A DNA stretch of 64,000 nucleotides from assembly GCA_963971425.1 (NCBI GenBank), contig OZ020517.1, positions 22,144,462 to 22,208,461 on the forward strand, written 5' to 3'. Below the pieces are notes generated by a model. The model was not told the DNA's origin. It worked only from the letters and a program-made list of their open reading frames with translations, and ran no database searches. A program made the translations under genes and the position numbers. The DNA is from Bryoerythrophyllum caledonicum (taxonomy: Eukaryota; Streptophyta; Bryopsida; Pottiales; Pottiaceae). Numbering within the stretch: position 1 is the first letter of the stretch; each line of letters starts with the position of its first letter. Shown here piece after piece: positions 14,546-42,298 of this stretch.

Positions 14546-15231
14546 TATGTAGTGTATTTAAGAAACTTCTCGCTTTAGCTCTAAATTTGAATTTGAGTCC
14601 AACTAATGAAATGAGGGTTATGAAGTCTAGTTTCCATTCCAATTTGAAATCTTGAAAAATACACAAAATTGGATAAGTTATTGCAATTCAAACTTAGGGC
14701 GTATAACCGATTTTTTAAATTTTACCCAAACACGGAATTTTCATTTACACCACAAATTTTGTTCCTACAATGTACACGTGAGATGGAATTCTCAAAATTT
14801 TGAAGCATACTTTGAATTTGATATGAAATTTCTTCACTTTCTCTTCAAAAAATCACAATAAATTCAAAATTTTCCAATTTTTTGGTCAAAATTTTTGACA
14901 TGAAAAAAACATGTGATCTCATCTCTGGAAAATGAAAATAAAATAAAATTCCACTTACATTTCAGAGATGAAAAATCAGAGCACACATTAGAATGGAAAT
15001 AGGGGTCGATTTCACGATCATAGGCTCCGTCCTTGAAGGGTCAATAAGCCTACCCTCTAAGCAGAGGCACATGACAACCATACGGGGCTTCATCTTCCAG
15101 ATATGGTCCCTAGAAGTCCGGGTTGGGCTCTCCATGCCCACACCAATTTCATGGTAAAATCTGATATGGTTCCTAACAGAACCAAGTTGGTTACCCTCTT
15201 CTGATTTACCTTTTTAATCATAATATTACCA

Positions 15232-15380
15232 CAACGTTCCCGTTGTGTTCCCAATGAGTTCCCATGTTGTTCTCCAAAGTTCCCAACGTGTTCTCAACTG
15301 TACCACAACGTTGCCATGTGTTCCCAATGCATTCCCCATGTTCCCAAAGAGCTCCCAATGTGTTTTCATTGGAAACCAAT
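15232..15380. repeat. Imperfect GTTCCCAA minisatellite
   Basis: The word GTTCCCAA or a one-base variant recurs about ten times with spacing of 12 to 25 bases, interspersed with CAACGTT and CATGTGT. Short frames on both strands result from the repeat. The same tract is at 32992-33140 in copy B. Confidence 0.6.
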
Positions 15381-15414
15381 TTTGATCTTTTGTTTAGTAG
15401 GACCAACCATCAAT

Positions 15415-15728
15415 CGTTGGGGCTCCAACAAAGGGAGCGCCCAGGGCGAATTGACCCCCTCGTTGGTACTTACCCGAGAGGGCCAAGAGGTGGTGGGACC
15501 AAACCTGGCCCCTATTTTGTTTTTGGATGGGGCCCAATTTATAACAAGGGAGGGTCCTCCACGATAGACAATGGCCAGAGGCCCCAAATTTGTCAATTTT
15601 TTTTTTCTTCCAAAAAAAGCCTTTGGACCCCCAAAATAAGAGGGCCAAAAAAATGACCCCATGCAATTAAGACGGGGCCCACCTTGGGTAAGTACCAACG
15701 AGGGGTTCAATTCGCCCTAGGCCCAACG
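15415..15728. mobile_element. 314 bp MITE upstream of the lectin gene (CGTTGGG family)
   Basis: Left CGTTGGGGCTCC with AGGGCGAATTGACCCCCTCG and TTGGTACTTACCC is mirrored at the right by GGGTAAGTACCAACGAGGGG, AATTCGCCCT and CCCAACG, giving arms of about 60 bases. It lies ~0.73 kb before the lectin ATG. Frames on both strands (up to 130 codons) simply run through the palindrome. Copy B: 33175-33488. Confidence 0.75.
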
Positions 15729-15872
15729 AAGCTCATCCGCGCACATGTGCATGAGCTTTCTGCCACTGCCACTGCCCACAATTCTACTACGCACGTGGAA
15801 TTATGTGGAACCAAACTAAGGCGATCACCCATCCCACGAGAAACGCAAGCATCCGTGGATTTGCCAAAATAC

Positions 15873-16118
15873 CCCGGTCGAGCGTTGCACCAAGCCTCAG
15901 GCTTGGAAGGACCGTGGGGGAGGGTAGGGACAAAACCCGATTTTATGTTGGAGGGGGGCCCTACATGATCCTAAGGGGCCCGGTGAGGGTAATTTGAGGC
16001 CACAGGTCCCAATTTTGTAAAAAGAAAAACCAAAAAAAGCTTCTAGAACCCTGAATTGGGCAGGGCCAGAAAAATGGACCCACCTCAGGCTGAGGTTTAG
16101 TGCAACGCTCGACCAGGG
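15873..16118. mobile_element. 246 bp MITE-like repeat (GTCGAGC family), copy c, upstream of the lectin gene
   Basis: Left end CCGGTCGAGCGTTGCACCAA and the mirror-image right end TTAGTGCAACGCTCGACCAG are nearly perfect inverted repeats. The interior matches the copies at 2487 and 3653. It ends ~340 bases before the lectin start codon, so it may lie in or near the promoter. Copy B: 33633-33878. Confidence 0.75.
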
Positions 16119-16302
16119 CCAATAAAGAGATCCAGCATCCGTATGTCAAACAATAAGAGTCATGAACACATACAGCTAGCCGTGCTGTACCTGGACCTCT
16201 GTTTATTTGGAGCTGATGTCATGTCAGTACGAAAATCAATGTTCCACTCTCACGAGCCTTGTGCATGGCTGAATCTGCTCCATGGTCTTTGCCACAGAAG
16301 GG

Positions 16303-16310
16303 TATACATA
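16303..16310 (+). promoter_or_regulatory. Possible TATA box of the lectin gene
   Basis: TATACATA lies 157 bases before the lectin ATG, between the upstream MITE and the coding region, at a distance that would give a 5' leader of about 120 bases. This rests on position and motif only. Copy B: 34063-34070. Confidence 0.3.
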
Positions 16311-16459
16311 TGCGCCTCATGGTGACACATTTCTCACCATTCGCAACTGAATCTCAGCTCGTCGACTTCACATCTGCGCTAGCTACTAGCTGTGTACAGT
16401 TTCAAGTCCACCTGATCCCTCTTCCGTCGTCCCCGCAGTAGCTAGTACTACTAGTCACC

Positions 16460-17131
16460 ATGTCTTACTCCATCAGCGTGAGGGTGATCCAGCAGAGCGA
16501 CCCCAGCCACCGGTTCAGCATCGTGGAGAAGACCAACTGGCACTACGCCCGTGGAGGCACCTGGGCCGAGTGCAACGGCGTGCACACGCTCACCATGGGC
16601 GGCAGCGGCACCTCGGGCATGCTGCGCTTCAAGAACCACTCGGGCGAGTACTTCCTGGTGGCGCTGGGCGTGCACAACTACAAGCGGTGGTGCGACATCG
16701 TGACGGACGCCAAGCGCACCGACAAGGGCGCGGTGGTGAACTCGACGTACTACGATGACAAGCCGGGCAGCCGCTACGGGATGCTGTGGAAGCAGCTGCC
16801 GCATCTGGAGAAGACGACGGGGAAAGGCGTGAAGGTGAAGGTGGACTTCTGCCAGGGGGAGGGCCACTGCCTCCAGGCCACCATCACCATCACCAACTTG
16901 TCCCCGACATGTCCTCAGCCTCATCACTGTCACCCTCATCCGAAGACATGTCCTCAGCCTCAGCACCCTCACTGTCACCCTCATCCGAAGACATGTCCTC
17001 AGCCTCAGCAGCCTCACTGTCACCCTCATCCGAAGACATGTCCTCAGCCTCAGCAGCCTCACTGTCACCCTCATCCGAAGACATGTCCTCAGCCGAGGAC
17101 ATCATGTCACCCTAAGCCGCATTGTAGGTGA
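16460..17131 (+). CDS. Fungal-fruit-body-type (ABL-like) lectin with Cys/His/Pro repeat tail, copy A
   Basis: A 223-residue protein in one exon, starting at the ATG in CACCATGTCT. Residues 1-147 match the fungal fruit body lectin family (Agaricus bisporus lectin type, a sugar-binding beta sandwich). The hallmarks WHYARGGTW (27-35), LTMGGSGTSG (44-53) and GVHNYKRWCDIVTD (70-83) contain the Ser-Gly, Asn and Asp-Ile-Thr positions that in that family contact T-antigen or GlcNAc. There is no signal peptide, as is usual for the family, so a cytosolic location is likely. Residues 148-223 form an unusual tail: about four units of the type HCHPHPKTCPQPQQP, rich in Cys, His and Pro and plausibly metal binding or disulfide forming. 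The coding part is far richer in GC than its surroundings. Plant homologues are known from liverworts and mosses. The family call is firm; the tail function is inference. Confidence 0.9.
   Translation: MSYSISVRVIQQSDPSHRFSIVEKTNWHYARGGTWAECNGVHTLTMGGSGTSGMLRFKNHSGEYFLVALGVHNYKRWCDIVTDAKRTDKGAVVNSTYYDDKPGSRYGMLWKQLPHLEKTTGKGVKVKVDFCQGEGHCLQATITITNLSPTCPQPHHCHPHPKTCPQPQHPHCHPHPKTCPQPQQPHCHPHPKTCPQPQQPHCHPHPKTCPQPRTSCHPKPHCR
16909..17110 (+). repeat. 45 bp coding minisatellite in the lectin tail
   Basis: One 39-base unit (16909-16947), three 45-base units (16948-16992, 16993-17037, 17038-17082) and a partial unit follow each other with few changes. Each unit begins ATGTCCTCAGCC and ends CATCCGAAGAC. 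Because 45 is a multiple of three, copy number can change without a frameshift. Copy B: 34669-34870. Confidence 0.95.
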
Positions 17132-17264
17132 CTGTTTGTCGGTGGAGTTGTGGATCCAGTCTGAGTATGTAATGTAGAGAACTTCAGATTATGCTTGTCT
17201 GTGGAGTTGCAGATCGAGTCTGAGTAAGTAGTAAAGAGTGTAGAGAGCTTCCGATCATCCTAAA
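17132..17264 (+). other. Lectin 3' flank with a duplicated ~65 bp segment
   Basis: Two related stretches follow the stop codon: one from CTGTTTGTCGGTGGAGTTG, the other from GCTTGTCTGTGGAGTTG. Each continues with AGTCTGAGTA and GTAGAGA-CTTC. This looks like a tandem duplication in the presumed 3' untranslated region. No terminator can be named for a plant gene. Confidence 0.5.
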
Positions 17265-17430
17265 AGCTACCTGTACATTTTCAATATAGAAAAATTCAAT
17301 ATACGAGATCAGTGTTTTAGATTTTCCGATCATGCACCATCAGAGAAACTCCTTAAAAAGGTTAAGATTTGAAGCTTGAAAACCACTTCAAACACGCAAT
17401 TAAGCAATTATGCACTTAGCCAAGTGCACT
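17265..17430 (+). repeat. Dispersed repeat family X, left-end fragment after the lectin gene
   Basis: The stretch CATTTTCAATATAGAAAAAT, ACGAGATCAGTG, CATGCACCATCAGAGAAACT and AGCTTGAAAACCACTT matches 29235-29385 downstream of the bestrophin gene. The last 45 bases (CACGCAATTAAGCAATTATG and on) match 23320-23375 in reverse. Copy B: 35025-35190. Confidence 0.7.
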
Positions 17431-18254
17431 GGTTGATGGTAGAAAGCCGCAAGTTTTTCGCTCCTAACTTTAAAAAAATCAAAATTTGGCAAGAGCTTAG
17501 TTTGTTTTTTGTCACAAAATTTTGGTGTTTGTCGTGTCAAACATTGACATCTTCATGTTCATATAAGTGATATATTTTTGATATTTGCTACCTTTTTTTA
17601 GAAAATATATGATTTCTAATCTAGTTTGAAAATCGTGCTACAAAATTTTAATCATGTGCCCAAAGAGATTATAAATGTGTTTTGAGTTATTATAGGATTT
17701 TAGAGTACTGCACTACAAATACAATGTGTAAGAGATACAAAAATATATATGCAATTTCCTAAGACAATGTAAAGTACCTCACTGTATTTTATATGCAAAA
17801 ACATACATAATCAAACAATTCCACACTATTGCTGAGAGATTCTAAAATCAAACATATCATATGGACCACCCAATATATAAATATATACCACCTACTAAAC
17901 GATAGACACATCTTAAACTGCATTATACTAACGTATTTGCCACCTAAACTGCGTGCATGCTCTACTATAGTATAAAGCTCCAAGGCTCAAAGCTCATCTT
18001 CTAGGGCAACGACTCCCTCCACGTGTCCAATGGCGCTACCTACCATAGCAGACAGTTTATGATCCTGCACTTGACGATCTTCCACGTCTTCAATGCTAAT
18101 GGACGGGAATAATCCGTCACCCACATAAAGGCGCTCGACTCATCCATTCCGCGATCCACCAGCTGTGGCTCTCCCAGATTCTGTCATTTTTTGGTGGTGC
18201 CATGACGCAACACTCAAAAAACCTGTAAATCATTACGAAACCATAGTCATTATT
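17431..18254. other. AT-rich spacer, no gene recognised
   Basis: Only short frames are present and no repeated family was identified. Copy B equivalent: 35191-36014. Confidence 0.4.
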
Positions 18255-18960
18255 AGTATGGAATAAGAATTTTTGAACCTCCACTCATTGCACAATTTTT
18301 TTGAATAGGCTACACCCCTTGTCTACCTCTAAAAGCTTTTGCACTACACAAGATCTAAATCCAATACCATTATGTTAAGCATGTTGTTAGTTCTTTGGTG
18401 AAATAGCGTATCAATCCAAATCAGTTATTTTCACACATTGTCACACATTTTTGGCGAAGGTACCAAAAAATCTTCTACCTTTCCACATAAAACTATGAGA
18501 TCTTTGTATGATCCACTTCTGATTTTTCCTACGACATTATGTGATGTAAACCTTCTTATTGACCATTTGGATTTTCATTTAAAACAATAGCAAGTTCACA
18601 AAAAAATATAACGTGAATTGAGAATTTTTGAACCTCCACTCATTGCACAATTTTTTTGAATATGCTACACTTCTTGTCTACCTCTAAAAATTGGTATACA
18701 GCAAACTAACGTCATGCTTAACATCATGGTAATTAATTGAGACCTTTTATAGTGCAAAAGTTGGACACCATTTGAAGTCAAAGTCTGCTGATCCAGAAAA
18801 CGCCGGGAAGAAAATGAGCCTTTTCACTACTTCAAACATTATAATCTTTCAATCCGTGCTGTTAGACTTTATGAAATTTTGTGAGTATATTACTTAATAA
18901 GTCGTAATTGAGATCCTACGGTTAAAACTACAAAAAAAATTCATTTTTTCTTCATTGCTA
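18255..18960 (-). mobile_element. TTAA-flanked repeat family, two overlapping inverted fragments
   Basis: Family landmarks in reverse orientation (TTTTTGAACCTCCACTCATTG, GGCTACACCCCTTGTCTACC, CCTTCTTATTGACCATTTGG) occur twice in part. A second fragment therefore interrupts or duplicates the first. Terminal sequences are missing. Copy B: 36015-36720. Confidence 0.55.
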
Positions 18961-19198
18961 ATTGCACTAAAACAAACATTATTAATGATTTTTGGATGAG
19001 ATATTCTCTAGATCATTCATGGACCAAGGTACTTGGGGTATCAATATGGAGGGTATCACCATTAGGGTATAAGTTCCTGGGTACCATTACCGATTATCAC
19101 CCAAGGTTTCAATTTGGGGTATCTATTTAGGGTTTGGATTAGGGTTTTGGAATTAGGGTATCAATTAAGGATATCAATTGCACCTTTTGGTAGTGTTA

Positions 19199-20980
19199 GG
19201 AGGGGTGTGCGCGCGCACACCCCTCGCAGTAGATGTGAAGAGGCTGTGAGTGTGAGCGTGTAGGGTTTGGAGGAGAGAGACAATGAAGGTGTGGGAGAGA
19301 GGGGCTAGTGAGGGCGGGGAAGGTGTGAGGGAGGAGAGGGAGATAAGTAGTGGGCGGCTAGGGTTTGGGAGAGAGAAGGAGAATAGGAGTGAGGATTAAG
19401 AAGTTTGTGATAGAGGCCGCACCTGCGTGCTCGTAGTCTGGGGTGATCCCGTGATCTTGCTCTTAGCTGCGGTGATTCCCTGCAAGGTCGCGCCACGCCT
19501 GCAACCTCGATGACCGAGTCCGCTGCTGAAAGAGAACGCGATCGCGGCGCATCAGGGTGATCCCGTCGGTGCTGCAGAGTCCGGGTGATCCGCCACTGCT
19601 GTTGAAGGTGATCTTACCGCTGCTCCGTGACGTCGGTCTTGATCGACCAACACGAGCAAGATGGCCATGACGAGCACGAGCACGAGCAAGATGGCCAGGA
19701 CGAGCACGAGCAAGATGGCCAGGACGAGCACGAGCAAGATGGCTGGACGAGCACGAGTAAGATCGCCAGCACGAGCAAAAGATCGTAAGATCGCCACGAG
19801 AGCATGAGATCAAGAGCAAGATCGCCTTAAACATTGTTGCCTCGAACTTGAGCAAGATCGCCTTAAACATTGTTGCCTCGAACTTGAGCAAGATCGCCTC
19901 GCACATTGATCGCCTCGATCAAGAGCAAAATCGTCTCAATTTGAGATCAAGACCACGATGCGCAAGGGCCGCGCCATTCAGATTAATGTTCGAGGCAGCA
20001 GAGATGCGGCGATCTTGATCGAGATGTTCGAGGCGCAAGATCTGTTCGAGGCGCAAGCTCAAACTGAGGCGAGGGCGACGCCATCCAGATCCTCCTCCTG
20101 GGCCTCAGGTAAGAGTATTCTCCTCGGACATCCAACATATTACACATTTCCAACCAGTTCTGTAGGATTTTCACGTCGTGGGTTCAGAGTATAGAGCTGA
20201 TTGGCAACACTCAAGTGTGGCACTACTGCTCCTGTAGCGGTGCTGTCTTCGAGAGCTGTAGTTGGAAGCCATGTTGCGCAGCTGGGTGCCGTCCGCTTGC
20301 CTGCAAGAAGCTGCTGCACTAGAAGCGGAGCAATCAGCACCAGCCATAAACCTCAGGTAAGAACATTCTCCACGAATATCCAACATATTGCACATTTTCA
20401 ACCAGTTCTGTAGGATTCTCACGTCATGTGTCCAGATTTGTGAAATGGAACCGGATGAGTGAATAACTCGTTCAGGGTTCAGAGATAAAGCTCTACCAAT
20501 CGAGGAGAGAGCTGGTTGAGAGTTTAGAGATGTCAGTTGAGTATAGAGCTGGTTTAGGATTTAGGGATGTCAATCGAAACCAGTTATGTAGAGAGGTGGT
20601 TTAGGGTCTTGAGCTGTAGAAGGAATCCAGCTAAGTTTGAGGTGTTGACCTTGGTTGCCAGAAAGGAAGCTCGGTGAGAAATTCCAAGGTTCTAGTGGCG
20701 CTAGTAGCAGCGGTCCATCCATCCTTGCCTGGAAGCATTGGTGAGACAACGACCATGGGGTTTTGGGAGAGGTTTTGGTGCTTGTGCAGATCTACGGTTA
20801 TAGAGGACATTTTGGAGATGTTGGGTGGAGGAGCAGTTGTTGGGGGTATGCGCGCGCACACCTCTAGTCTATGGAACTCCATTGGATCATTTAGGATCTC
20901 ATGGGAACGTGGCGGCTAGGGTTTAAGGATTTAGGGTTTGGGTTCCTACTGGCGGCGGCTAGGGTTTGGGTAGTGGGCTG
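19199..20980. other. GC-richer region with palindromes, minisatellite and duplicated splice-donor segment; no coding gene recognised
   Basis: The region starts with a perfect palindrome, AGGGGTGTGCGCGCGCACAC plus CCCT (19201-19224), and ends near a related one (GGTATGCGCGCGCACACCTC, about 20846). Between them lie G-rich TAGGGTTTGG words, a 24-base minisatellite (19650-19760), a 37-base direct repeat (19827-19900, TTGTTGCCTCGAACTTGAGC) and two ~80-base copies of a segment containing CCTCAGGTAAGA (20103-20180, 20348-20425). Frames of 60-147 codons on the minus strand follow the repeats and look non-coding. It could be a transcribed noncoding locus or a decayed gene. Copy B: 36959-38740. Confidence 0.45.
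19650..19760. repeat. 24 bp minisatellite (CACGAGCAAGATGGCCAGGA type)
   Basis: About four and a half units of 23 to 30 bases repeat CACGAGCAAGATGGCC and GACGAG. They create open frames on the minus strand (Leu/Val-rich or Ser/Cys-rich) that I reject as proteins. Copy B: 37410-37520. Confidence 0.85.
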
Positions 20981-20999
20981 ATTTGTGTAGCTGCACCCA

Positions 21000-21589
21000 C
21001 AGATTCACAGCTTCAATTGTGATTTTGATGTCACTCAGTAGTTGATGACTTCCATCATGTATAAACACTCAACTTTGCTTGAATTTGACGTTTTGAACAA
21101 ATATGAATTGTCTATTTCTAATTAGCAATGATTGAAAGTTAGGAAAGCTTACCTTGTTTACAAAAATTCTTTCTTAGCACAAATTTGCTGCTCCGGTGTG
21201 CACACCACACGCAAAGCCTACAAAAATTAGTACAAGAAATAAAAATTGACATAGCTTCAACATGTTTGCATGAGAGCTCACCTTCGAGAGTGGGAAGAGA
21301 AGAGACCTTTAGGGTTTGTAAGGAAACCTTACATGCAAGTTCAAACCTTGTACCTCAAGGTGATGTGTACGCCATCAAACAATGATGTCCCTACCGCTAA
21401 CACTTGCAACATACTTTGAGGTAATCAATTATTTCTATACATATTTCAGATTGATTCTTGATCGATCTTCTATACTGTGTTGTTTGTAGAATAACCTTTA
21501 TGTAGATGTACAATTCTTTTGTTTTTATTAGCAATTGTATCAAGTTCGAATGGTGTCAATAACAGTAAGTAATATTATTTGTTTTCGTA
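21000..21589. other. Spacer, no gene recognised
   Basis: Contains a 66-codon frame (21185-21385) without a recognised motif. Copy B equivalent: 38760-39349. Confidence 0.35.
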
Positions 21590-22111
21590 TCGATAAAATA
21601 CATTTGTTGTCTTTAGTGAAAATTTCTACATTAACCTAAGTCAATTGCACATACACATGGTCACACATTGTTAGGCAAGGTACAAACTAAACTTCTTCCT
21701 TTCCACATAAAGCTTAGAGATCTATATATTAATTTCATTTTATTTTCTTTATAAAAAGATCTGGTGTAAACCTTCTTATTGACCATTTGAATTCTCATTC
21801 TAAAACATGATGAGGTCATCAAAAAATAAAGCACAATTTGATAAATTTTAAATCTCCACTCGTTGTACAATTGTTTCGACTATGCTACACCCTTTGTCTA
21901 CCTTTCAAAATTCTTGTACAAAAAAATTACATCAAAATTAATAGGATGGCAATGAACTTAAACATTATGTAGTGCAAAAACAAAAACTCCAACTACAATC
22001 AAAGTTTGCTTATCAACACAACCTAGGAAAGAAAATTAACCGTGTTCTGTATTTTGAACACTATAATCTTTTAATCCGTGCGGTAAAAATTTACAAAATT
22101 TTGTGAGGACG
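21590..22111 (-). mobile_element. TTAA-flanked repeat family, inverted fragment
   Basis: Family landmarks in reverse (AGGCAAGGTACAAAC, TTTCCACATAAAG, CTTATTGACCATTTGAATT, CCGTGCGGTAAAAATTTAC) end where a forward copy begins at 22112. The two fragments are head to head. Copy B: 39350-39871. Confidence 0.55.
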
Positions 22112-22615
22112 TCCTTAACTCCTAAGGCATTGTGACAGTTCACATCGAAAACATTTCAAACTGTTCGATTCTAGTGCAATGTATAAAGAAGGAAACAAAA
22201 ATTGTTTATCTCTTCTTTTAACCGTATGATCTAAATGAAGACGTGGTAAATTACAGATTCACAAAATTTTATAAAGTTTGACCACACCAATCAGAAAATT
22301 ATGGTGTTTGAAGTCAAGCAAATGGTTCATTTTATTTCCTGCGTTTACCGAATCAACAGACTTTGACTTCACTTGATGTCAAATTATTGCACTACACAAT
22401 ATCTAAACCCAATACCATCGTGTTAAGCATGATGTTAGTTCCTTATACACGAATTTTTAGATGTAGAAGAGGGCAGTAGCATATTCAAACAACTATGCAA
22501 GAAGTCCAGGTTCAGAAATTCCCAATTATCGTTTTATTTTTTTGTGAACTTCAGATATTTTAGATTGACAATCCAAATGATCAACAGGAAGATTTACACT
22601 GCATTTTTTCATGGG
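22112..22615 (+). mobile_element. TTAA-flanked repeat family, forward fragment
   Basis: Begins CCTTAACTCCTAAGGCATTG (left end of the family) and runs through TTTGAAGTCAAGCAAATGG to about 22610, where unrelated sequence starts. The right half of the element is missing. Copy B: 39872-40375. Confidence 0.6.
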
Positions 22616-23319
22616 TAGACACACCGGAAAGAACCATGTCCGGAGCGAGCGGGTGGAGAAAGCGCATTGTATTTGGAGTGCAAGTTGAAAGTAGGATCCG
22701 CATTCTTCAATTGGCAAAGGCTCACATACTACAATATATTGCAATGCAAACCAAAGCTATCGATGATGACCGTTTGCAAGTAGCCCTAAATTCTATGGAG
22801 TAGATAGTGTCCTTTATGAGAGTATACTAGTTGTGTATGGTAATTGCTATATAGTGTATGTGTAAGAGTAGTATATTCTAAGGGTGATGTAAGACTTTTT
22901 GTCATTAATCCCAAAGGTGTAAAGGTGTTTTTACTATTGGTGCTAAGTCCATTTGTAGAAGCATCTATATTTAGTTTCCACCATTGTATGCATTATGTAC
23001 TACGTAGAATATCTTTTAATCAACTGCCAACCCTTTCATAAAGTATGTTTTTTGTGATTACGCCTATTTGTATACTACAATCCTTCAAATCTATCTTTGA
23101 AATATTGTGAAATTATATTAAATACACATTTATCTAGTATTAACGAGGGGCCACCAAAAATTAGTTGAAAATGCCAAAAAATTGCTTCCAATATTAACAA
23201 CTATGATTGTACGTAATATTGTTGCAGAAGCTCAATTTTTTTTCCTTTGGAAAACATTTTTTTTCTTTGAATTTTTTTTTTTTTTGCAATTTTGCCACTT
23301 TTGTTCGCAATGGCCGCCG
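22616..23319. other. Spacer, no gene recognised
   Basis: A modestly GC-richer patch (22620-22800) carries fragmentary frames on both strands with no motif that I recognise. A T-rich run follows at 23236-23286. Copy B equivalent: 40376-41079. Confidence 0.35.
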
Positions 23320-23581
23320 TTGTACCCAAGTGCACTTTTAAATGGCCAAGTGCATAATTGCTTAATTGCGTGTTTTCAATGTTCGTTTTGTTCCCAATAT
23401 CTGACTGGATGGATCCTAGTTGCGACGCACTGGCACCATGGATGTGCTCAGTAATTGTTAGTTATGAATTTAACAAAAATATGAATGTGTAGTGACTTAT
23501 CAATATGTAAATGAATGCAGTAAATTTGAACGCATCTTGTGTGACAAACATGGCACTTTATGAATGATAAACAAAGCTGCA
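23320..23581 (-). repeat. Dispersed repeat family X, right-end portion
   Basis: Read in reverse, this matches 31016-31120 (TTTGTTTAT-ATTCATAAAGTGCC, then TTTACTGCATTCATTT) and then continues into GGTGCCAGTGCGTCGCAA, the mirror of 29405-29440. This copy of family X therefore has inverted ends of about 200 bases and has been split by the Tc1-like element that starts at 23582. Copy B: 41080-41341. Confidence 0.7.
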
Positions 23582-24909
23582 TCAAGTTGGAGTTTTGGCG
23601 ATTCCAGGGATAGTGTTGTACACTGTTGCCATTTTTAACATCCTCTTGAGGGCTGAACAATTGTCATTTTACGAAGAAATTTTTAATACAAGATCATTTC
23701 TATGTTGGCAACATGCTTGCTAAATTTCAAGGCCAGAAGATGAATACAAGAAAAGATATTCAAAATCTACCAACATGTGTAGTTGTGAGCCATCCACAAC
23801 TGCCAACTTTGACACCCTCCCTAGGGCTGATTTTTTAATATTTATTTACCGTGAAATTTACGGCACAAGATCATCTCTGTGTTTATTACAAGTTTGCTAA
23901 ATTTCAAGGCCACATGATGAATAAAAAAAAAGATACTCAAAATTGTTTCTTGTAGTTGCTTATGTTGGTAGATTTTGAAGATGGTTTTTTGTATTCATCT
24001 TTTGGCTTAAAATTTGGCACACATTATTTCAACATAGAGATGTTCTTGTGCCAAAAATTTCATGGTCAATTAAGAATTTTGCAGACCTAAGGAGGGTGGC
24101 GAAGTTGGCAATAGTGACATGGTTTCCTTGATTGTTTCTAACAATTACACATGTTGGTAGATTTAGATTTTTTTCTTTTCATTTGTGGATCTTTTGGACT
24201 TGAAATTGAGCACACGTATAATCAATATAGAAATGGCCTCATGTCCAAAATCTCATGGGAAAAATAAAAAATTTAATCCTTGGGAGGGTGTCAAAGTGGG
24301 CAGCTGTGAAACTTTTCTCACAACTAACCTCCATGTTAGTAGATTTTGAATATCTTCTTTTGAATACATTTTTTGGCCTTGAAAATTTTCCCACATGTTA
24401 TCAACATAAAGGTTACCATGTGTCAAAAATTTCATGTTGAAATAACAAACCCTCAATCCTAGGGAGGGTGTCAAAGTTGGAAGTAGTAAAATGGTTTTTC
24501 CCTTTTTTTCTCACAATTACACATGTTGGTAGATTTGGGATGTGATTTTTTTTGTGCATTTTTTGGACTTGAAAATTTCCACACATGTAATCAACATAAA
24601 GGTGTTCTCACTCCAAAAATTCCATGGGCAAAAAAAATTTCCTCAATCCTTGGGATGGTGTCAAAGTTGGCGGTTGAGAAACTTTTCTCACAGCTACCCC
24701 ATGGTGGTTAATTTTTAATATCTTTTGTTTCATAAGTCCTCTAAACTTGAAATTTGGTATGCATGTTTTTAACATAGAGGTGATGTTGTTCCCAAAATTT
24801 CAGGGTAAAAGAACAACTTTTCAGCCCTGTGGAGGGCGTCAAAGTTGGCAGCAGTGTGGGACACCATCCTTGGAATGGCCCAAACGCCAATTTGAATGTC
24901 ACCCTACTG
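23582..24909. mobile_element. Tc1-like element, internally deleted (copy A)
   Basis: The right end is the mirror of CAGTAGGGTGACATTCAAAT and is followed by TA (24910-24911). The left end (TCAAGTTGGAGTTTTGGCGA) is the same terminus lacking its first ~15 bases. Between them are ~185-base units, two in one orientation then about five in the other. Each unit carries GGGAGGGTGTCAAAGTTGG, a word like ACATGTTGGTAGATTT, and CAAAAATTTCATGG. No transposase remains. Copy B at the same locus is longer by 2,874 bases and has the transposase. Confidence 0.8.
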
Positions 24910-25600
24910 TACACGATGAGTTTGATATAGGCACTACTTTGAAACATGCATGTGCTGGAGCTTTCAATTACTAATACGAAGTGGTTTGACATGCCATTGG
25001 AGGGGTGACATGTCAGTTATCTCTTAGGCCTTAGTGTAGAAAAGTGATTTCCCTCAAAAGGGGGAGTAGTTCTATTACAGGATCCTATATCCCGTGGTCA
25101 TGGGCTTATGCAAAGAGAAGGAAAAAACACTATTTTCACGCCGGCCCTTGATAGGGACTGGAGTTTTTTCTGTTTCTCTTTTTCATTTTTTTCATTTTTT
25201 TGACATACATAACATTCAAACAATCAAAAGAACTTTGGTCATGTCCAGGCTATGGTACCAGTGCATCGCAATTCAGATGGTGGAATCAAAATAAACAGAA
25301 GTGATTTTGAAGCTTTACATCTTGACCTCTTTTACAATTTGAATTAGGGCTTACGCAAAGGTACTCTGATGGTCCACGATTGGAAAATGATCTCGTAAAT
25401 TGTATTTTTCTATATTGAAAATGTATTCATATGTTCAGATTGGACAAAAATTGATGCAGATATTGAAAGAATAAAATTGTGATTCTACGAAGTTCAGCAA
25501 TGATCCAATTTTGGTGATTGAGTAATTATACTTCTATTTTCTTTTGAAACCAATTTCATGCACTCCTTGGCTTCAAAACTTTTCCAAAGGTGCCAAAAAT
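24910..25600 (-). repeat. Dispersed repeat family X, left portion (beyond the Tc1-like element)
   Basis: Read in reverse, 25600-25240 matches 29070-29440 downstream of the bestrophin gene. 25240-24910 matches 30830-30950, apart from a 207-base insertion at 24993-25199. With 23320-23581 it forms one element lacking the DUF26 gene. Copy B: 45544-46234. Confidence 0.7.
24993..25199 (+). mobile_element. 207 bp retroposon-like insertion with 7 bp target-site duplication
   Basis: TTGACAT flanks the insert on both sides (24986-24992, 25200-25206). The related empty site near 30870 has a single ATGTCAAT. The insert ends in a T/C-rich tail of ~36 bases. A diverged relative lies at about 60470-60663 and is followed by the long TTC tract. 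A SINE-like retroposon is the likeliest reading, although an LTR fragment is possible. Copy B: 45627-45833. Confidence 0.6.
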
Positions 25601-25824
25601 TCCTAAAACTCATTCATAATATTGAAGATCCCACATTGGCACACGAACAAAACAAAACACACACCTGATTTAACATTGAAGTTATGACCATTACATCCAC
25701 GTGAAGAACTTCAGAGGCCTTTATTTGAGCATGATTAAATTTTCAGTGCAATCTCAGCATTCGAGAAGAACAAGCGGCCGAAAACCCTGACCGGGGATTT
25801 TATGATAAACCCCCCACAAGCAAT

Positions 25825-26140
25825 GTGCATGAATGGAGAGAACAAATAATTATACATTTACTTTTCAGTAATAGCCAATAGAATTGCAATTTCAACTGAA
25901 GTGATTTCATTTTTCCCATCGGAATGTAAATTAGTTATGAATTTTTAGAGTGTGTTGTCATGTTTAGCATGTGGCCACCAATAGGTACCTTCTGTGAGCG
26001 CCAACCAAAAGTAAGGGGTCCTAACTAATATCAAACTTCCATTTGGAGTTGAATAGGTGGTAGTGGGATGGAAGCGGGTTGGACATACCCCAATTTTAGA
26101 ACTATTGGTTATAGGTTTTTGTTGGTTACTAGGGGGTTAC
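25825..26140. repeat. Dispersed repeat related to 12365-12690
   Basis: Same order of landmarks as the copy at 12 kb (TAATTATAC, AGTAATAGCCAATAGAATT, CCATTTGGAGTTG, ATACCCCAATTTTAG, TTTTTGTTGGTTA), with moderate divergence. Copy B: 46459-46774. Confidence 0.65.
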
Positions 26141-26170
26141 CGCAAATCAGTTCACATCTATGGGCACTTC

Positions 26171-26393
26171 TTGACTACACTAAATTTTATGTTTAGTGTC
26201 ATACACAATAAACGACTTGTAAATGCTATAAGTTTTTCCTTTTGATGAAGATTATTACCAACTGTGTCTACGATGATCCCCCTCTTTGAATAATACAAAT
26301 TTTTGTGCTTTTAGTAAAAATCTTCATCAAAAGTAAAAACTTATAACACTCACAAGTCGTTTAGTGTACATGACACTAAACATAGTGTAGCAC
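26171..26393. mobile_element. ~220 bp MITE-like palindrome (ACACTAAA family)
   Basis: ACACTAAATTTTATGTTTAG, AAACGACTTGTAAATGC and ATAAGTTTTTCCTTTTGATG at the left are mirrored at the right. It is related to the element at 6153. It lies about 0.7 kb upstream of the bestrophin start codon. Copy B: 46805-47027. Confidence 0.7.
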
Positions 26394-26399
26394 CTATGA

Positions 26400-27104
26400 A
26401 ATAAGAGGTGGATACTCAATTGATACCAATGTACACAAGAATACGACTTTGTGACCATGTGAAGGCTTCTTTGACATATAAGTTACCTTCAATGATTTAA
26501 TTTTAGTTCAACCCTTAACGACCAACGAGCTCTCAAGGCCAAGGAGAAACTAGATTATGCGTATCATCATCTACAACAGATACATTTCATTGCAACCCCA
26601 CTTCACAGAAATCACCAATGTTAGCATTGATTTTGGTGGCGCGGGTCGCAGGAGATGCTCATCTTGCTCCGCCTCTAAATTCTCCAAGGTGACATGAAGT
26701 GCTTGCTACAGGGATTAGTGTGCCCACATGACCCAAAAATGGTCGCTTTCGTCTTTCTGCTTTGCACATCGGAAAAGCACGGAAAGGCAAGTTTGCTGTC
26801 GAGCTCGGAAAGGAAGGAGAAAGATTGTACAGAAAGAGAGGTCACAATACATTCATCAACCAAGTTCAAGTTGTCCACTCGTCCGAGAAAGAGAAAAGAG
26901 CTGAATCCTTCGACAGAATTTGCCATCCTTTTGGCAAACAAACTTGCTGGCTATGGAGAGTGACATGACAAGATTTGCTACTGATCGGAGGAGTTTTCAG
27001 CTTTCTCAGGAAGTGTTCGCGTTGCGGAATCGGAGGAGCTGATGCGGTTCGAGAGGATGTTATCTTCTTCCTGTGAATGTATGGATTTGTGAGGAGGAGT
27101 TGTG
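26400..27104 (+). other. Upstream region of the bestrophin-like gene
   Basis: GC content rises from about 26600 toward the ATG. Frames at 26694-26968 on both strands overlap each other and have no recognised motif. They most likely represent promoter and 5' leader rather than a separate gene. Copy B: 47034-47738. Confidence 0.4.
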
Positions 27105-28884
27105 ATGCAAAGCCTGGCTCAGCTTCAGCGTGCGCGAGTTCCGGTGCGGCGGGTGGAGAGGTTGGAGAAGAGTTTCGGCGACAGAGAATGCAGGTCGCGT
27201 GTGGAGTTCGCCGGGAAGCGTTCGCCGTGGGATGGCGGGAGTTTGAGGACGCGAGTGTTGTGTATGGAGGATGACAGGGTTTCGAAGTCGGAGCTGAAGG
27301 AGATCACGGAGGTTGTGTTGACAGGGGAGGAGAAGGAAGTTCCCGGGAGCAGCTACTTTTCGGGGATTGAGAGCGATGAGGTTGCGGAGAGGTCAGGGGC
27401 GACGAGGTTTGATGCGCGGCACCCGTTCGACTTGCGGTGGATAGGCGAGTGGGCGGACGCGCTCACGGAGCGGGGGATGGTGAAGCGGAGGTCGTTCTAC
27501 AGCCACGACGACTGGCTGCGGCACCGGAGCTCCACGAGGCACTACCGGCATTTCCTCTCGAGCTTCTCCTCTCGGGCGATTCTTTCCCTGATTCCGCCTG
27601 TGGGCACCATGACCGCGATCTCGCTGTTCGTGGCCGTGTACAATAGCGTCGTGTCGACGGGATGGCTGCCGTCGTTCGTTCCTGTGCTGCACGCTTCGTC
27701 GCTTTCGTACCAGCTCACGGCCCCCGCGCTGGCTCTGCTGCTCGTGTTTCGAACGGAAGCGTCGTACTCTCGCTACGACGAAGCGCGCAAGACGTGGACC
27801 AAGGTTATCAGCAGCGCCAAGGACATGGCTCGCCAGTCGATGGCCTGGGCGCAGTGCCCTGGCGATTTCCCTCGGAAGAAGCTGCTGCTGGACTATATAC
27901 TGGCATTTCCTGTGGCTCTCAAGGTAAGACCTCTCATCTGTGCAGATCATGAACCCTAACACCACAACAAGTGATCGATATTCGAAGCTTTCCTGTAGAG
28001 CAGCCATGGTGAAAATGTTGCAGTCATGATCAATCCTGAATGCAAGACAGCCATTTGAAACTACCGCTTGAATTTTTAGTCATTTGCAATTAGGATGATA
28101 GGAGTGAGATCTTCGTTGGTTGCACATGTTCACTGACTGTCGCTCTCCCTTCGACAGTGTCACCTTCTCAATGGTTCCGACATAGTAGCGGAGCTGAGAG
28201 AGATTTGGAAGAAGATGACCTCGCGCTCGTCCTTCATGCAGAGCATCGGCCGAATTGCCTCATCCAGCTCATGACTCATTCTGTGAATTCTATCAAGTTA
28301 AAAGACGGGGATAGAAGCGCTCTGGTAAGATATCAGAGAATTCTTCCTTGATGTCATAATCCATTTTGCCTTTTTTAAGAAGAATAGTAGTTCACCATCT
28401 TTGCCTTCTATTGCAGGATGCAAATATCACCCAGTTTAATGAGAGTATAAGCGTGTGTGAGCGTCTGATTCGCACGCCCATTCCGCTTGCCTACACGCGG
28501 TTGACCTCTCGGATCCTGGTGCTGTGGCACCTTGCATTACCGGTGGTGCTATGGGATGATTGTCACTGGGTGGTTGTCCCCGCCACATTCATTAGTGCAG
28601 CTTCACTATTCTGCATTGAGGAAGTAAGCTCCCAGCTACCTCTTTTGATTGCACATGAAATTTCTGAGTGCAGTTGTATGAACGTACATTCCCATGTTTG
28701 TTTGCTGCAGGTCGGAGTGTTGATTGAGGAGCCATTTCCCATCCTGGCGTTGGATCGGATGTGTGCCAAAGCGCAGGAGAATATCCAGGAGTTGGCAGCT
28801 TTGCAAGTGCAAGCTCAAGAGCATCTGAGCAAGAAGATTATGAAGTTACAGAGTAAGGTTGTTTCAAATGGGGCAACCAGTTGA
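27105..28884 (+). CDS. Bestrophin-like chloroplast (VCCN-type) chloride channel, four exons, exon 2 frameshifted (copy A)
   Basis: Exons, all with GT-AG introns in phase 0: 27105-27923, 28158-28324, 28417-28623, 28711-28884. Conserved family stretches are SHDDWLRHRSSTRHYRHFLS and LIPPVGTMTAISLFVAVYNS (exon 1), CHLLNGSDIVAEL and DLALVLHAEHRP (exon 2), IPLAYTRLTSRILVLWHLAL, WDDCHWVVVPATFISAASLF and CIEEVGVLIEEPFP. Known members conduct chloride across the thylakoid membrane and adjust proton motive force in light. The Arg/Ser-rich first ~60 residues suit a chloroplast transit peptide. In exon 2 the frame switches at a GA repeat (28196-28203). As assembled, translation stops at 28272-28274 after 311 residues, and one GA fewer would give a continuous ~454-residue protein. 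The start is the ATG at 27105; the GTG before it is not used. The family call is strong. Whether the gene is intact is open. Confidence 0.88.
28196..28203 (+). other. (GA)4 frameshift site in bestrophin exon 2
   Basis: Upstream of this site the conserved frame reads CHLLNGSDIVAEL. Downstream the conserved frame DLEEDDLALVLHAEHRP is offset by two bases. An extra GA unit explains both. The same sequence is in copy B at 48830-48837, so it is either a real mutation or an error shared by both contigs. Confidence 0.8.
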
Positions 28885-29040
28885 TAACTGTATTTAGTAT
28901 GAAATGGGACGAATGAATATACGTTGAATTCCTACTGAGAAACAAGCAGCTGCAGTGCTGCTGTATTGGTTGTAGAATATTAGGAATCACCACAAGGTGG
29001 ATGACGTTCTCTTGCAGCTACTATATTCTCTGAAGCTGAC

Positions 29041-29620
29041 CATTGTACAGGAGATTCAGGATTTGTTCATCAACCTCTGGAAAAGTCTTGAAGCCAAGGA
29101 GTTCATGGAATTGGTTTCAAAAGAAAAAGAAGTTATTGAATTGCAAAGTATAATTACTCAATCTTCAAAATTGGATCATTTCTGATCTTTGTAGGATCAC
29201 AATTTTGTTCTTTCAATTAATCTCGATCAATTTTTTGTCCAAACTACATTTTCAATACAGAAAATTACAATTTACGAGATCAGTGTAAAAGATACTCCAA
29301 ACATGCACCATCAGAGAAACTTCACATTAACCCTAATTCAAATCAGAATTTTTTTTAAAGATTCAGAAGCTTCAAAACCACTTATTTTGTTTTCAACATC
29401 TGAATGGATGACTCCTAATTGCGATGCACTGGCACCATACACATTGTGCTCAATAAATGCTAGTTATGAATGAATTGAAGAAAAGAATATGAATGACATG
29501 TAGTATCTTTTTATTAAAAGCAGTGAATCTGAAAACACTGAAATTGGCACAAAAATATGAACAATAAACAAAATTGCAATGTGTGAGCAATCAAACCTGC
29601 ATGTTTGATGGTGGTTGTGA
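29041..29620 (+). repeat. Dispersed repeat family X, left arm before the DUF26 gene
   Basis: 29070-29440 matches 25600-25240 in reverse, and part (29235-29385) matches the lectin 3' flank at 17265. The last part (29495-29617, including GCAATGTGTGAGCAAT and ATGTTTGATGGTGGTT) is mirrored at 30981-31120. A 62-codon frame at 28997-29185 (ending KLDHF) lies here and is unassigned. Copy B: 49675-50254. Confidence 0.7.
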
Positions 29621-29634
29621 AGACTTAGGAAAGA

Positions 29635-30410
29635 ATGATGGTGACGTGGTTGGTGTTGGCGTGGCTGGTGCCCATCGCGGTGTCGGCCGACTACACATGC
29701 AGCAAGAACATGACGGTGTTGGAAGCCTTCCAATTCGACTTCTTGAGGACGTTTCAAAAAACGGGCCTGGAAGCGAAGAAGAGGATGTTCGACGAGCAAA
29801 GCAGGACGCTCAACTTCACCATGACCAGCAAGGATACGCACCGCAACGTTACTGTGTGGGCGGTTTGCAACCCGAATGTCACCAACAAAGCCATGTGCTC
29901 GGTGAGAATCCAACTTACAAAACATTGGCAGCAACCTTCACGTTGTTTTCTTATGTCATTACGAAATGAGCGCCTCCGTATGAACCAAGTACCAGAGGGT
30001 ATCAGACTAGTATCATGCATGCACAGTATCAACCGTGTATTCACACAGGTATCAGCTACAATTGCTAGCACTGTAACCAGGCTAGTTTTCTGGAGACTGC
30101 TCATTTCTTCTAGTGCATTGGCTCGCAGGGTTGTATTGGTATTTTGATGAATGGCATCTATGAGCTATGTTGTGAGCAAAGATCCTCTTGGGGCACCATC
30201 AACATGAGGGCGGAGTGTTCCATTGGCTACAGTGCCCTGGAGTATATGTATCAAGGGTGGACTGATCTTGGAGATTTGCCCAAGGACGTCTTGAAAGAGC
30301 CTGGACGGATTGATTTTGACGGTGGTCATTCCATTCTCCCAACTCGCAGACCCCATTTATTCTCCTTTCTAGTGTTGCTTTTCAGTAATTTCCTTGGCAT
30401 ACAGTTTTGA
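29635..30410 (+). CDS. Secreted single-DUF26 (Gnk2-type) cysteine-rich protein, two exons (copy A)
   Basis: Exon 1 is 29635-29901 and exon 2 is 30129-30410, with a GTGAG...GCAG intron in phase 0. The protein has about 182 residues. Residues 1-18 (MMVTWLVLAWLVPIAVSA) form a clear signal peptide. The mature part carries one stress-antifungal (DUF26) domain: TVWAVCNPNVTNKAMC, SGC across the splice junction, then GIYELCCEQR and INMRAECSIGYSALEY. The central motif here is C-X9-C-X2-C rather than the usual C-X8-C-X2-C. NFT, NVT and NMT sequons suggest glycosylation. A hydrophobic tail after PTRRPH (FSFLVLLFSNFLGI) may be a GPI-anchor signal or membrane segment. Relatives act outside the cell, with roles in defence or at plasmodesmata. 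The ATG lies 18 bases past an inverted repeat. Confidence 0.72.
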
Positions 30411-30829
30411 CAGGGCCTGAGGAAGAAAACCTCTAACCTTCAAATATGTCATGTGCACAATGTCCAGGCTCAACTTTGTCATGTTTTTATCCAATGCCAT
30501 GTGCACTCCATTTTCATCTCATTTTTCTTGCATACTATATCATCCACACTCACAAACTTGACTAGCGCACTGTTTTCAAGAGGATTAGACCATGAGATCT
30601 AGTAAGGGTGGCAACCATTAATGCTATTACATTGTGAAGGCATATGAACAAGGACTTGACTCTCCAAAAGAGGTTGATGTAAATGAAGTGTCTGGAGGTT
30701 TGTTCCACCATTGAGCCCATGCTTGGGTAAAGGAAAGATGCACTTTAGTCTGCCGAGGAGACCGGCATGAAGAGAGTGTGTGCTCCTTTCCTCCACTGTG
30801 CGCAAGGACATAAATTAGTGGAATAGAAG
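30411..30829 (+). other. DUF26 3' flank
   Basis: Follows the TGA with no further recognised coding exon. A 70-codon minus-strand frame (30599-30811) is unsupported. It probably includes the 3' untranslated region. Copy B: 51045-51463. Confidence 0.4.
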
Positions 30830-31120
30830 GGACATGACCAAAGTTCTTTTGATTGTTTGAATGTTATGTATGTCAATCCACTTCCTATCAGTAACTAAAA
30901 GCTTCAGTGCACGTTTGAAAGAAGTGCCTACATCAAACTCATCATGTACAAAGAAACGCAATTATACTTTGAAATTCAATAAACCACCATCAAACATGAT
31001 CTCATTGCTCACACATTGCAACTTTGTTTATTATTCATAAAGTGCCAAAATGGTCACACAAAATGCTTTCAAGTTTACTACATTCATTTGCATACTAACG
31101 AGAGGTCACTACACACTGTC
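30830..31120 (+). repeat. Dispersed repeat family X, right arm after the DUF26 gene
   Basis: 30830-30950 matches 25240-24910 in reverse. 30981-31120 is the mirror of 29495-29617 and matches 23590-23480 in reverse. It includes an uninterrupted version of the Tc1 target (CTTTGTACATGATGAG in reverse) and of the 207-base insertion site. Copy B: 51464-51754. Confidence 0.7.
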
Positions 31121-31673
31121 AGGATCGATACATGGAGGCGTTCTGTAGGTGGTTTCCGGTTAGAAATCACCTCAGGAGTTGTGGACTTACCAAAAGGCAT
31201 AGAACTTAGCCCTAGTAAGTGATTAGGGTTAGGGTTAGTGCTGCGTGACAACTAGATCAACGGTGGTGTCTTTTGACGCCTCATGGGACTTGGAGTCCAA
31301 ATGACCTCTACGTGTAGTTAAAGGAGATTCATCTTTCTTAAGTTGAGTCTCCCACATGATGAGGTGAGGGTGTGTGTGCACACCATTAGCTACATGGTGA
31401 TCATGCTATCACTCTTTAAGAGTGGCATGGACTTGACTCGTCATGTGGCATAAACAAGTTTTGCTTATTTGTTATTTGAGAAAGATCATGTTGTGGAAAT
31501 AGGTGTAACCGCGACATTATTGTACATCTAATGGGGTTTTGAGGACGTTGCTCAAAATTCCTGTTTCAAACATCAGGGTTCCGAGGTTTTGGAACTAAAG
31601 CGGAGGGCATCCGGACAAGTGCAAACTTGATATTTGGGATTCCTTTGTGCAGGCTTGGAGTTTTGGTGTGGAA
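31121..31673. other. Spacer, no gene recognised
   Basis: Contains a short TTAGGGTTAGGG run near 31228 that is too short to be telomeric. No conserved frame was found. Copy B: 51755-52307. Confidence 0.35.
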
Positions 31674-31860
31674 GAGATCAACATTGCATTGCTCTACAAG
31701 GATTGCACGATCTTGTGCGCAAATATTATTGTGTATAAATGTTTGCACCTCAGTAGCTACAACTCTTTGAAGCCGGTGCTGCTGACGGTGTTTTGTTGTT
31801 GAGATGGGCTATCACGATTGGAGCAAGTCTGGCATCGTACCCCATTGACATAGTAAGGCG
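31674..31860 (+). pseudogene. ADP/ATP carrier (mitochondrial carrier family) fragment, copy A
   Basis: Two frames together resemble the last third of mitochondrial ADP/ATP translocases. From 31674 the frame reads INIALLYKDCTIL-ANIIVYK then YNSLKPVLLT, like the segment after the fourth helix. It hits a TGA at about 31800. From 31799 a second frame gives LLRWAITIGASLASYPIDIVRR, including the carrier signature PxDxxRR. About ten residues between them are deleted and the sequence is unrelated after the signature, so it cannot encode a carrier. No intron interrupts the fragment, which would suit a retroposed copy. Confidence 0.75.
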
Positions 31861-32443
31861 TTTCCTTCTAGTAGAGCCAGCAATAAGCGGTGACCACCTT
31901 CATCGTGAAGCACGAAAAGTAGAAGAGTGAGGCGTTGGAGTCAAATGGCAGTAGGCTCGCACAAGTTCAAGTCGTGACTTTGGGCACGAGCTTCGCGAAT
32001 CAGCTATGGCATTAGCGCTAAGTAGAGCGTAACAAACAGGGCGAAGTGCGGAGTTGCACCCAGGAGGTGAGAATTGAGAGAAGATTTTCGCTACTCACTT
32101 GGGGTTGCAATCTGCTCGGTGTACCGTGGTACACGGTATTTGTGGTATTCAAGTTGTTGAAGGTCCGGCTGCAGGGCTTTGGCATCCTTGAGGTGGAGGT
32201 CGCCTCAAATAGATTTGTGTACTCAATAATCTGCAAAAGAAGCTTAGGATGTCAGTAAAGGTCTGCCTTTGACGAATGGTGGCAACGTGACAAGCGGAAG
32301 GCACCAATGAAGGGTTCACAGGACTGACATTGGAGGTACTCAGTCCTCATCTGCTCGACCTCATAGCCAACAACTTCAAGAAAACTCTACAAGCACTCAA
32401 CATTGTACTCCAACGCTACGCAACCTCCACAAGACCCATTGCC
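31861..32443. other. Unassigned sequence up to the contig end
   Basis: Moderate GC. Frames of 60 to 72 codons occur on both strands without a recognised motif. A frame starting with ATG near 32330 runs into the N gap; in copy B it continues to 53197 and remains unrecognisable. Copy B: 52495-53077. Confidence 0.35.
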
Positions 32444-32643
32444 NNNNNNNNNNNNNNNNNNNNNNNNNNNNNNNNNNNNNNNNNNNNNNNNNNNNNNNNN
32501 NNNNNNNNNNNNNNNNNNNNNNNNNNNNNNNNNNNNNNNNNNNNNNNNNNNNNNNNNNNNNNNNNNNNNNNNNNNNNNNNNNNNNNNNNNNNNNNNNNNN
32601 NNNNNNNNNNNNNNNNNNNNNNNNNNNNNNNNNNNNNNNNNNN
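32444..32643. other. Assembly gap of exactly 200 N
   Basis: The round number suggests a placeholder of unknown length. Sequence to its right repeats 14884 onward, and sequence to its left is found again at 53077, where it continues. The two contigs overlap rather than being separated. Confidence 0.98.
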
Positions 32644-34219: not shown

Positions 34220-34891
34220 ATGTCTTACTCCATCAGCGTGAGGGTGATCCAGCAGAGCGACCCCAGCCACCGGTTCAGCATCGTGGAGAAGACCAACTGG
34301 CACTACGCCCGTGGAGGCACCTGGGCCGAGTGCAACGGCGTGCACACGCTCACCATGGGCGGCAGCGGCACCTCGGGCATGCTGCGCTTCAAGAACCACT
34401 CGGGCGAGTACTTCCTGGTGGCGCTGGGCGTGCACAACTACAAGCGGTGGTGCGACATCGTGACGGACGCCAAGCGCACCGACAAGGGCGCGGTGGTGAA
34501 CTCGACGTACTACGATGACAAGCCGGGCAGCCGCTACGGGATGCTGTGGAAGCAGCTGCCGCATCTGGAGAAGACGACGGGGAAAGGCGTGAAGGTGAAG
34601 GTGGACTTCTGCCAGGGGGAGGGCCACTGCCTCCAGGCCACCATCACCATCACCAACTTGTCCCCGACATGTCCTCAGCCTCATCACTGTCACCCTCATC
34701 CGAAGACATGTCCTCAGCCTCAGCACCCTCACTGTCACCCTCATCCGAAGACATGTCCTCAGCCTCAGCAGCCTCACTGTCACCCTCATCCGAAGACATG
34801 TCCTCAGCCTCAGCAGCCTCACTGTCACCCTCATCCGAAGACATGTCCTCAGCCGAGGACATCATGTCACCCTAAGCCGCATTGTAGGTGA
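34220..34891 (+). CDS. ABL-like lectin with Cys/His/Pro repeat tail, copy B
   Basis: The 223-residue frame is identical to the one at 16460, including the number of 45-base repeats (34669-34870) and both upstream MITEs (33175-33488, 33633-33878). Identity extends far into noncoding sequence. This points to a second representation of one gene rather than a paralogue. Confidence 0.88.
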   Translation: MSYSISVRVIQQSDPSHRFSIVEKTNWHYARGGTWAECNGVHTLTMGGSGTSGMLRFKNHSGEYFLVALGVHNYKRWCDIVTDAKRTDKGAVVNSTYYDDKPGSRYGMLWKQLPHLEKTTGKGVKVKVDFCQGEGHCLQATITITNLSPTCPQPHHCHPHPKTCPQPQHPHCHPHPKTCPQPQQPHCHPHPKTCPQPQQPHCHPHPKTCPQPRTSCHPKPHCR

Positions 34892-40800: not shown

Positions 40801-42298
40801 AAGTATGTTTTTTGTGATTACGCCTATTTGTATACTACAATCCTTCAAATCTATCTTTGAAATATTGTGAAATTATATTAAATACACATTTATCTAGTAT
40901 TAACGAGGGGCCACCAAAAATTAGTTGAAAATGCCAAAAAATTGCTTCCAATATTAACAACTATGATTGTACGTAATATTGTTGCAGAAGCTCAATTTTT
41001 TTTCCTTTGGAAAACATTTTTTTTCTTTGAATTTTTTTTTTTTTTGCAATTTTGCCACTTTTGTTCGCAATGGCCGCCGTTGTACCCAAGTGCACTTTTA
41101 AATGGCCAAGTGCATAATTGCTTAATTGCGTGTTTTCAATGTTCGTTTTGTTCCCAATATCTGACTGGATGGATCCTAGTTGCGACGCACTGGCACCATG
41201 GATGTGCTCAGTAATTGTTAGTTATGAATTTAACAAAAATATGAATGTGTAGTGACTTATCAATATGTAAATGAATGCAGTAAATTTGAACGCATCTTGT
41301 GTGACAAACATGGCACTTTATGAATGATAAACAAAGCTGCATCAAGTTGGAGTTTTGGCGATTCCAGGGATAGTGTTGTACACTGTTGCCATTTTTAACA
41401 TCCTCTTGAGGGCTGAACAATTGTCATTTTACGAAGAAATTTTTAATACAAGATCATTTCTATGTTGGCAACATGCTTGCTAAATTTCAAGGCCAGAAGA
41501 TGAATACAAGAAAAGATATTCAAAATCTACCAACATGTGTAGTTGTGAGCCATCCACAACTGCCAACTTTGACACCCTCCCTAGGGCTGATTTTTTAATA
41601 TTTATTTACCGTGAAATTTACGGCACAAGATCATCTCTGTGTTTATTACAAGTTTGCTAAATTTCAAGGCCACATGATGAATAAAAAAAAAGATACTCAA
41701 AATTGTTTCTTGTAGTTGCTTATGTTGGTAGATTTTGAAGATGGTTTTTTGTATTCATCTTTTGGCTTAAAATTTGGCACACATTATTTCAACATAGAGA
41801 TGTTCTTGTGCCAAAAATTTCATGGTCAATTAAGAATTTTGCAGACCTAAGGAGGGTGGCGAAGTTGGCAATAGTGACATGGTTTCCTTGATTGTTTCTA
41901 ACAATTACACATGTTGGTAGATTTAGATTTTTTTCTTTTCATTTGTGGATCTTTTGGACTTGAAATTGAGCACACGTATAATCAATATAGAAATGGCCTC
42001 ATGTCCAAAATCTCATGGGAAAAATAAAAAATTTAATCCTTGGGAGGGTGTCAAAGTTGGTAGCTGTGAAACTTCTCACAACCACCCCACGTTGGTAAAT
42101 CTTGCATAACTTTTATTGTATGAATCTCCTCCTCTTGAAATTTGGTATGCATGTTTTCAGCAAAAAGGTGATGTTTTCCCCAAAATTTCATGGAAAAACA
42201 ACAATTTTCCAGCCCTCACGAGGGTGTCAAAGTTGGCTGCAGTGTAGGACACTATCCCTGGAATCGCCAAAACGCCAATTTGAATGTCATCCTCCTGT

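Follow-up and report, generated by a model that had tools for sequence, protein, structure and literature searches.

Among the closest described relatives of the protein analysed here are the fungal fruit-body lectins XCL, BEL, SRL and ABL, whose solved chains comprise 141 to 145 residues. According to the part of PMC6272482 used here, SRL (Sclerotium rolfsii lectin) is secreted and associated with the cell wall, and the residues that form hydrogen bonds in its GlcNAc site, together with three of its primary site, are named there. With regard to plants, the cited part of a survey of 38 genomes reports mushroom-type lectins from two species alone, Marchantia polymorpha and Sphagnum fallax (PMC6362431), and a review, in the section cited, considers transfer from fungi to the ancestor of land plants to be likely, with loss in angiosperms (PMC12448838). 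In the passages of PMC12890914 that we refer to, one Marchantia accession shows an enrichment of FB lectins when it responds to a fungus, and work is cited in which injection of a Marchantia lectin raised the mortality of the diamondback moth. FB_lectins are also numerous in one of the categories of genes altered in the Mparf3 and Mpmir160 mutants, and four of the FB_lectins in this category are found in tandem arrays (PMC6174852, in the portion cited).

The protein presented here resembles the mushroom-type lectins of plants (PMC6362431, PMC12448838, PMC12890914, as far as the cited parts go) in its domain and in its presence in a plant genome. Those parts do not mention a Cys/His/Pro tail like the one described here. 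A mushroom-type lectin in a bryophyte is already known, and the tail is the part for which no precedent was found in the literature. Among the literature matches listed, in a search whose scope was the literature rather than plant sequence collections, no title or opening of an abstract dealt with an FB lectin carrying a Cys/His tail. Where checked, literature matches to the letters CHPHP were part of a web address.

The lectin domain and its sugar-contact residues

The window, that is, the whole stretch of 64,000 nucleotides that was analysed, exhibits the following features around the lectin gene.

16303..16310, plus strand: TATA-like motif (match to the consensus only), lying 157 nt before the ATG
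16460..17131, plus strand: single open frame, lectin plus tail (223 aa, TGA included)
16460..16900, plus strand: FB_lectin (Agaricus bisporus agglutinin type) domain, residues 1-147 (GC3 141/147)
16901..17128, plus strand: Cys/His/Pro-rich tail, 76 aa (GC3 35/76)
16913..17094, plus strand: 45-bp tandem array (TRF: 4.0 copies, 97% matches, score 336), underlying most of the tail
17105..17119, plus strand: fifth, shortened TGTCACCC block (CHPKP), 87% identical, 42 nt after the fourth
17133..17238, plus strand: two 47-nt repeats, 81% alike, spacing 59 nt, just past the stop
32444..32643, no strand: 200-N gap separating the two copies of an overlap
34220..34891, plus strand: identical second gene copy, probably an assembly duplicate and not a separate locus

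The gene is a single uninterrupted frame of 223 codons plus stop, from the ATG at 16460 to the TGA at 17131. The sequence-only reading had proposed a lectin of fungal type fused to a Cys/His/Pro tail at these positions, and this architecture is borne out. We consider it highly probable that an FB_lectin domain and a minisatellite-encoded tail share one frame. The pair of 47-nt repeats past the stop likely belongs to the 3' UTR. An antisense frame of 216 codons (16451-17101, minus strand) spans nearly the whole lectin gene and is likely a by-product of the GC-rich third positions and of the repeat. A tblastn search of the window (E up to 1) returned only the two identical gene copies, with no diverged second lectin or tail, and the Rfam search of the window gave no family at or above its gathering score.

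Residues 1-142 match positions 1-140 of the 140-position Pfam profile FB_lectin (PF07367) with an E-value of 5e-46 and 156.6 bits, the curated cut-off being 25, so that the lectin domain is complete, as had been claimed. When the whole protein was compared with the PDB (E up to 1), all seven sequences found were fungal lectins of the FB_lectin family, from Xerocomus, Boletus, Sclerotium and Agaricus. With the lectin part alone (E up to 10), FB lectins made up seven of the ten sequences listed; the three others, TbpB (E 0.24) and two transthyretins (0.79 and 0.9), were set aside as reflecting composition. XCL, BEL, SRL and ABL match nearly the whole domain (E 1.5e-43 to 2.7e-31), and these fungal matches stop at residue 143 or 144, four or five residues before the tail of the window protein.

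The single-sequence AlphaFold2 model of the whole protein is poor, with a mean pLDDT of 49.4, and lectin residues 81-120 also fall under 50. With this low-confidence model, Foldseek listed 340 matches with E up to 10, nine of which were under 0.001. All nine are FB-type fungal lectins, with TM-scores by target of 0.47 to 0.55. In a collection of prokaryote genomes with one genome per species (84,980 species), 16 stretches matched a pattern of the lectin domain, none of them confirmed, and a degenerate pattern for GVHNYKRW gave no match. Viral contigs gave three pattern matches for the lectin and 11 for the tail, none confirmed, and none for the degenerate pattern; the whole protein exhibited no relatives in phages and plasmids. 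These prokaryote, virus and plasmid collections have no bearing on novelty among plants and fungi.

The contact residues were counted by hand on an alignment to SRL, the numbering of the paper (PMC6272482, cited part) being taken as chain index minus one. In the GlcNAc site, four of the five residues that form hydrogen bonds in SRL are kept, namely Asp77, Ile78, Thr80 and Arg101, which correspond to D79, I80, T82 and R105, and the position of Tyr112 is occupied by L116. Of the three primary-site residues compared, His70 and Tyr72 are retained as H72 and Y74, and Arg105 is replaced by L109. The earlier statement that the sugar-contact motifs are kept is thus correct for most residues, but not for this Tyr and this Arg. 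As these two C-terminal contact residues differ from SRL, sugar binding may be kept but altered.

The repeat-encoded tail and its origin

The tail (residues 148-223, 76 aa) comprises 24 Pro, 16 His, 11 Cys, 10 Gln, 6 Thr, 5 Lys, 2 Ser and 2 Arg. The sequence-only reading had counted some nine Cys and many His in 76 residues, which agrees with the length and with the 16 His and undercounts the Cys. Its description of a unit repeated about four times and of a C-terminal TSCHPKPHCR is accurate: HCHPHPKTCPQP is present four times, two of the units being the exact 15-mer HCHPHPKTCPQPQQP and the other two ending in QHP and RTS. In the AlphaFold2 model, the tail exhibits no secondary structure and its blocks have pLDDT values of 30 to 44. 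The tail gave no Pfam match with E up to 10. Its three PDB matches, which are carboxypeptidase inhibitors (E 0.3 to 0.96), were discarded as reflecting composition at chance level.

The repetition in the tail goes beyond chance, although it exists primarily at the level of the DNA. The full units differ at one substitution, which changes His to Gln. In the fifth block, 13 of the 15 nucleotides have stayed the same, and Lys takes the place of His; since these nucleotides are simply unchanged, the CHPxP kept in this block is no sign of selection at the protein level. The open frame of the tail is likewise weak evidence for coding, because 68% of 20,000 mononucleotide shuffles of the 45-bp unit remain open through four copies and the real array can be read without a stop in five of its six frames. 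The spacings in the array are 39, 45, 45, 45 and 45, 45, 45, 42, all multiples of three, and that of the repeat past the stop is 59. This is weak evidence for coding, as few of the events are independent.

The lectin part is strongly codon-biased. At the border with the tail, GC3 falls from 0.96 to 0.46 (141/147 vs 35/76; Fisher 1.5e-17), and with the repeat copies dropped the tail stands at 12/26 (Fisher 1.7e-9 vs the lectin). All 11 Cys codons of the tail are TGT, and all four of the lectin are TGC. The tail does not resemble long-standing coding sequence of the lectin gene and, given the drop in GC3, is probably a recent addition, which perhaps arose by loss of a stop codon into a minisatellite. 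In our view the frame is real and its tail recent, and the sequence tips the balance slightly towards translation of the tail in vivo.

The same observations bear on a reading in which an ordinary lectin gene lost its stop and a noncoding minisatellite became translated, giving a tail without a function of its own. The GC3 break at the border, the switch from TGC to TGT, the openness of the shuffled units and of most array frames, and a lectin profile that is already complete without the tail all fit this account, and the multiple-of-three spacings argue, weakly, against it. A neutral tail of this kind is quite possible and comes close in likelihood to a useful one.

Possible roles of the tail

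The best explanation, which we favour tentatively from the sequence, is a soluble lectin with a disordered tail that may bind soft metal ions or crosslink. A member of the plant FB_lectin family would have had its frame extended through the 45-bp minisatellite into a disordered tail of 76 aa, gained recently by stop loss or by an insertion, with subsequent tandem amplification. The protein would be made with this tail and would act as a soluble defence or stress lectin, its carbohydrate binding being expected from what is known of the family. The Cys and His of the tail could then bind soft metal ions (Zn, Cu, Cd). Alternatively, breakage of the cell and exposure to oxygen might crosslink the lectin, which would increase its avidity for the glycans of attackers.

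The composition of the tail, with its 11 Cys and 16 His, makes metal binding or crosslinking chemically plausible, although it is doubtful that metal binding is what the tail does. The tail resembles metallothioneins and His-rich metal-binding tails in its high Cys and His content over a short stretch. Metallothioneins exhibit Cys clusters of the CXC, CC or CXXC type, whereas the tail contains no CXC or CXXC motif, its Cys being separated by 5, 6 or 7 residues, and has no Pfam match. The window protein also resembles chimeric wall lectins, in that a lectin is joined to a Pro-rich stretch. Potato lectin, a hydroxyproline-rich chimeric wall lectin, nevertheless belongs to another lectin family, is secreted, and carries Ser-Hyp rather than Cys/His repeats.

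The protein starts with MSYSISVRVIQQSD, which corresponds to position 1 of the lectin profile, and no signal or transit peptide is apparent by eye. The N-terminus, read in this way, gives no support to the anchoring to wall or plastid surfaces that had been suggested. An extracellular location without a visible signal peptide is nonetheless possible, by analogy, since the fungal relative SRL is secreted and associated with the wall (PMC6272482, cited part). The same analogy counts against an intracellular location. An upstream exon encoding an N-terminal peptide is also possible.

Combining these elements, a fungus-derived lectin with a minisatellite-born tail might crosslink under metal or redox control, its clustering depending on metal or on cell breakage; we regard this as rather improbable. 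It is also rather improbable that pairs of Cys join the lectin subunits through disulfides into large arrays with proline-rich spacers, in the manner of chimeric wall lectins. The 11 Cys spaced 5 to 7 residues apart in a Pro-rich stretch, and the secretion and wall association of SRL (PMC6272482, cited part), are consistent with such a structure, but a protein without a visible signal peptide may sit in the reducing cytosol.

Integrity of the gene model and meaning of the tail

The positions 14884-32443 (17,560 bases, 17.56 kb) match 32644-53077. An identical prefix of 9,414 bases and an identical suffix of 8,165 bases together account for the whole of the first copy, and the homology stops at the last base before the 200-N gap and starts at the first base after it. 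Because the homology ends exactly at the gap edges, as it would for unmerged contig ends, the assembly has most likely placed a single locus twice, and we count one gene; the sequence-only reading had not mentioned the second copy. Both stretches agree on the tail, yet the second is no independent evidence for it. A true and very recent tandem duplication of the gene would be in line with the presence of both copies on one scaffold and with the 2,874 extra bases of the second, but the complete coverage of the first copy by identical prefix and suffix and the stop of the homology at the gap edges make it unlikely.

The extra 2,874 bases lie at 42039-44912 or up to 19 bases later, owing to a 19-base overlap, and the difference in length reflects either a recent insertion in the second copy or a repeat-mediated deletion in the first. 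They carry a Tc1-like DDE transposase ORF (42804-43814, minus strand). A perfect inverted repeat of 507 bases (42299-42805 and 44599-45105) has one arm inside the extra stretch and one across its end, and tandem repeats of about 370 bp are found nearby. Elsewhere in the window, two inverted AGA/TTC trinucleotide arrays of about 140 copies each are located at 58912-59327 and 60664-61084.

A bestrophin-like gene, in at least two pieces, is located at 27093-28884 and again at 47727-49518, with 7ek1-3 as the closest PDB entries; its N-terminal extension could be a transit peptide. The copy at 27093-28884 corresponds to Pfam Bestrophin_2, described as bacterial/fungal, and matches 7ek1 and 7ek3 at 4.4e-57, the other 19 of the 21 PDB matches listed being at 3.1e-6 or weaker. 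We take 7ek1-3 to be plant channels. Fungal contamination was judged unlikely, as this gene, closest to 7ek1 and 7ek3, lies on the same gap-free stretch as the lectin gene.

A splice scan with plant consensus frequencies revealed no strong donor that would remove the tail. The best donor within the lectin part (16835) scores 6.7, a value reached by 3.1% of the 3,629 GT sites on the plus strand, and a donor-like site at 17128 scores 5.0, reached by 9.9%. For comparison, a donor at 27924, where the first open frame of the bestrophin gene is close to its end, scores 10.8. Acceptor-like sites are found at 17213 (6.2), 17602 (7.5) and 17696 (8.9). Although such sites are present, removal or avoidance of the tail, by a splice in or just after the lectin or by a transcript end before the array, is very improbable, as the donor scores do not stand out from those of other GT sites in the window, a splice at 16835 would cut the end of the lectin domain, and one at 17128 would leave the tail whole.

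With regard to the biology of the family, a neutral tail would make this case merely an example of stop loss. A repeat-born tail on a natural variant of the lectin would show that a transferred gene was remodelled after it had settled. If the tail does respond to metal or redox state, the moss would possess a small soluble lectin whose grip on the glycans of attackers depends on metal or on cell breakage.
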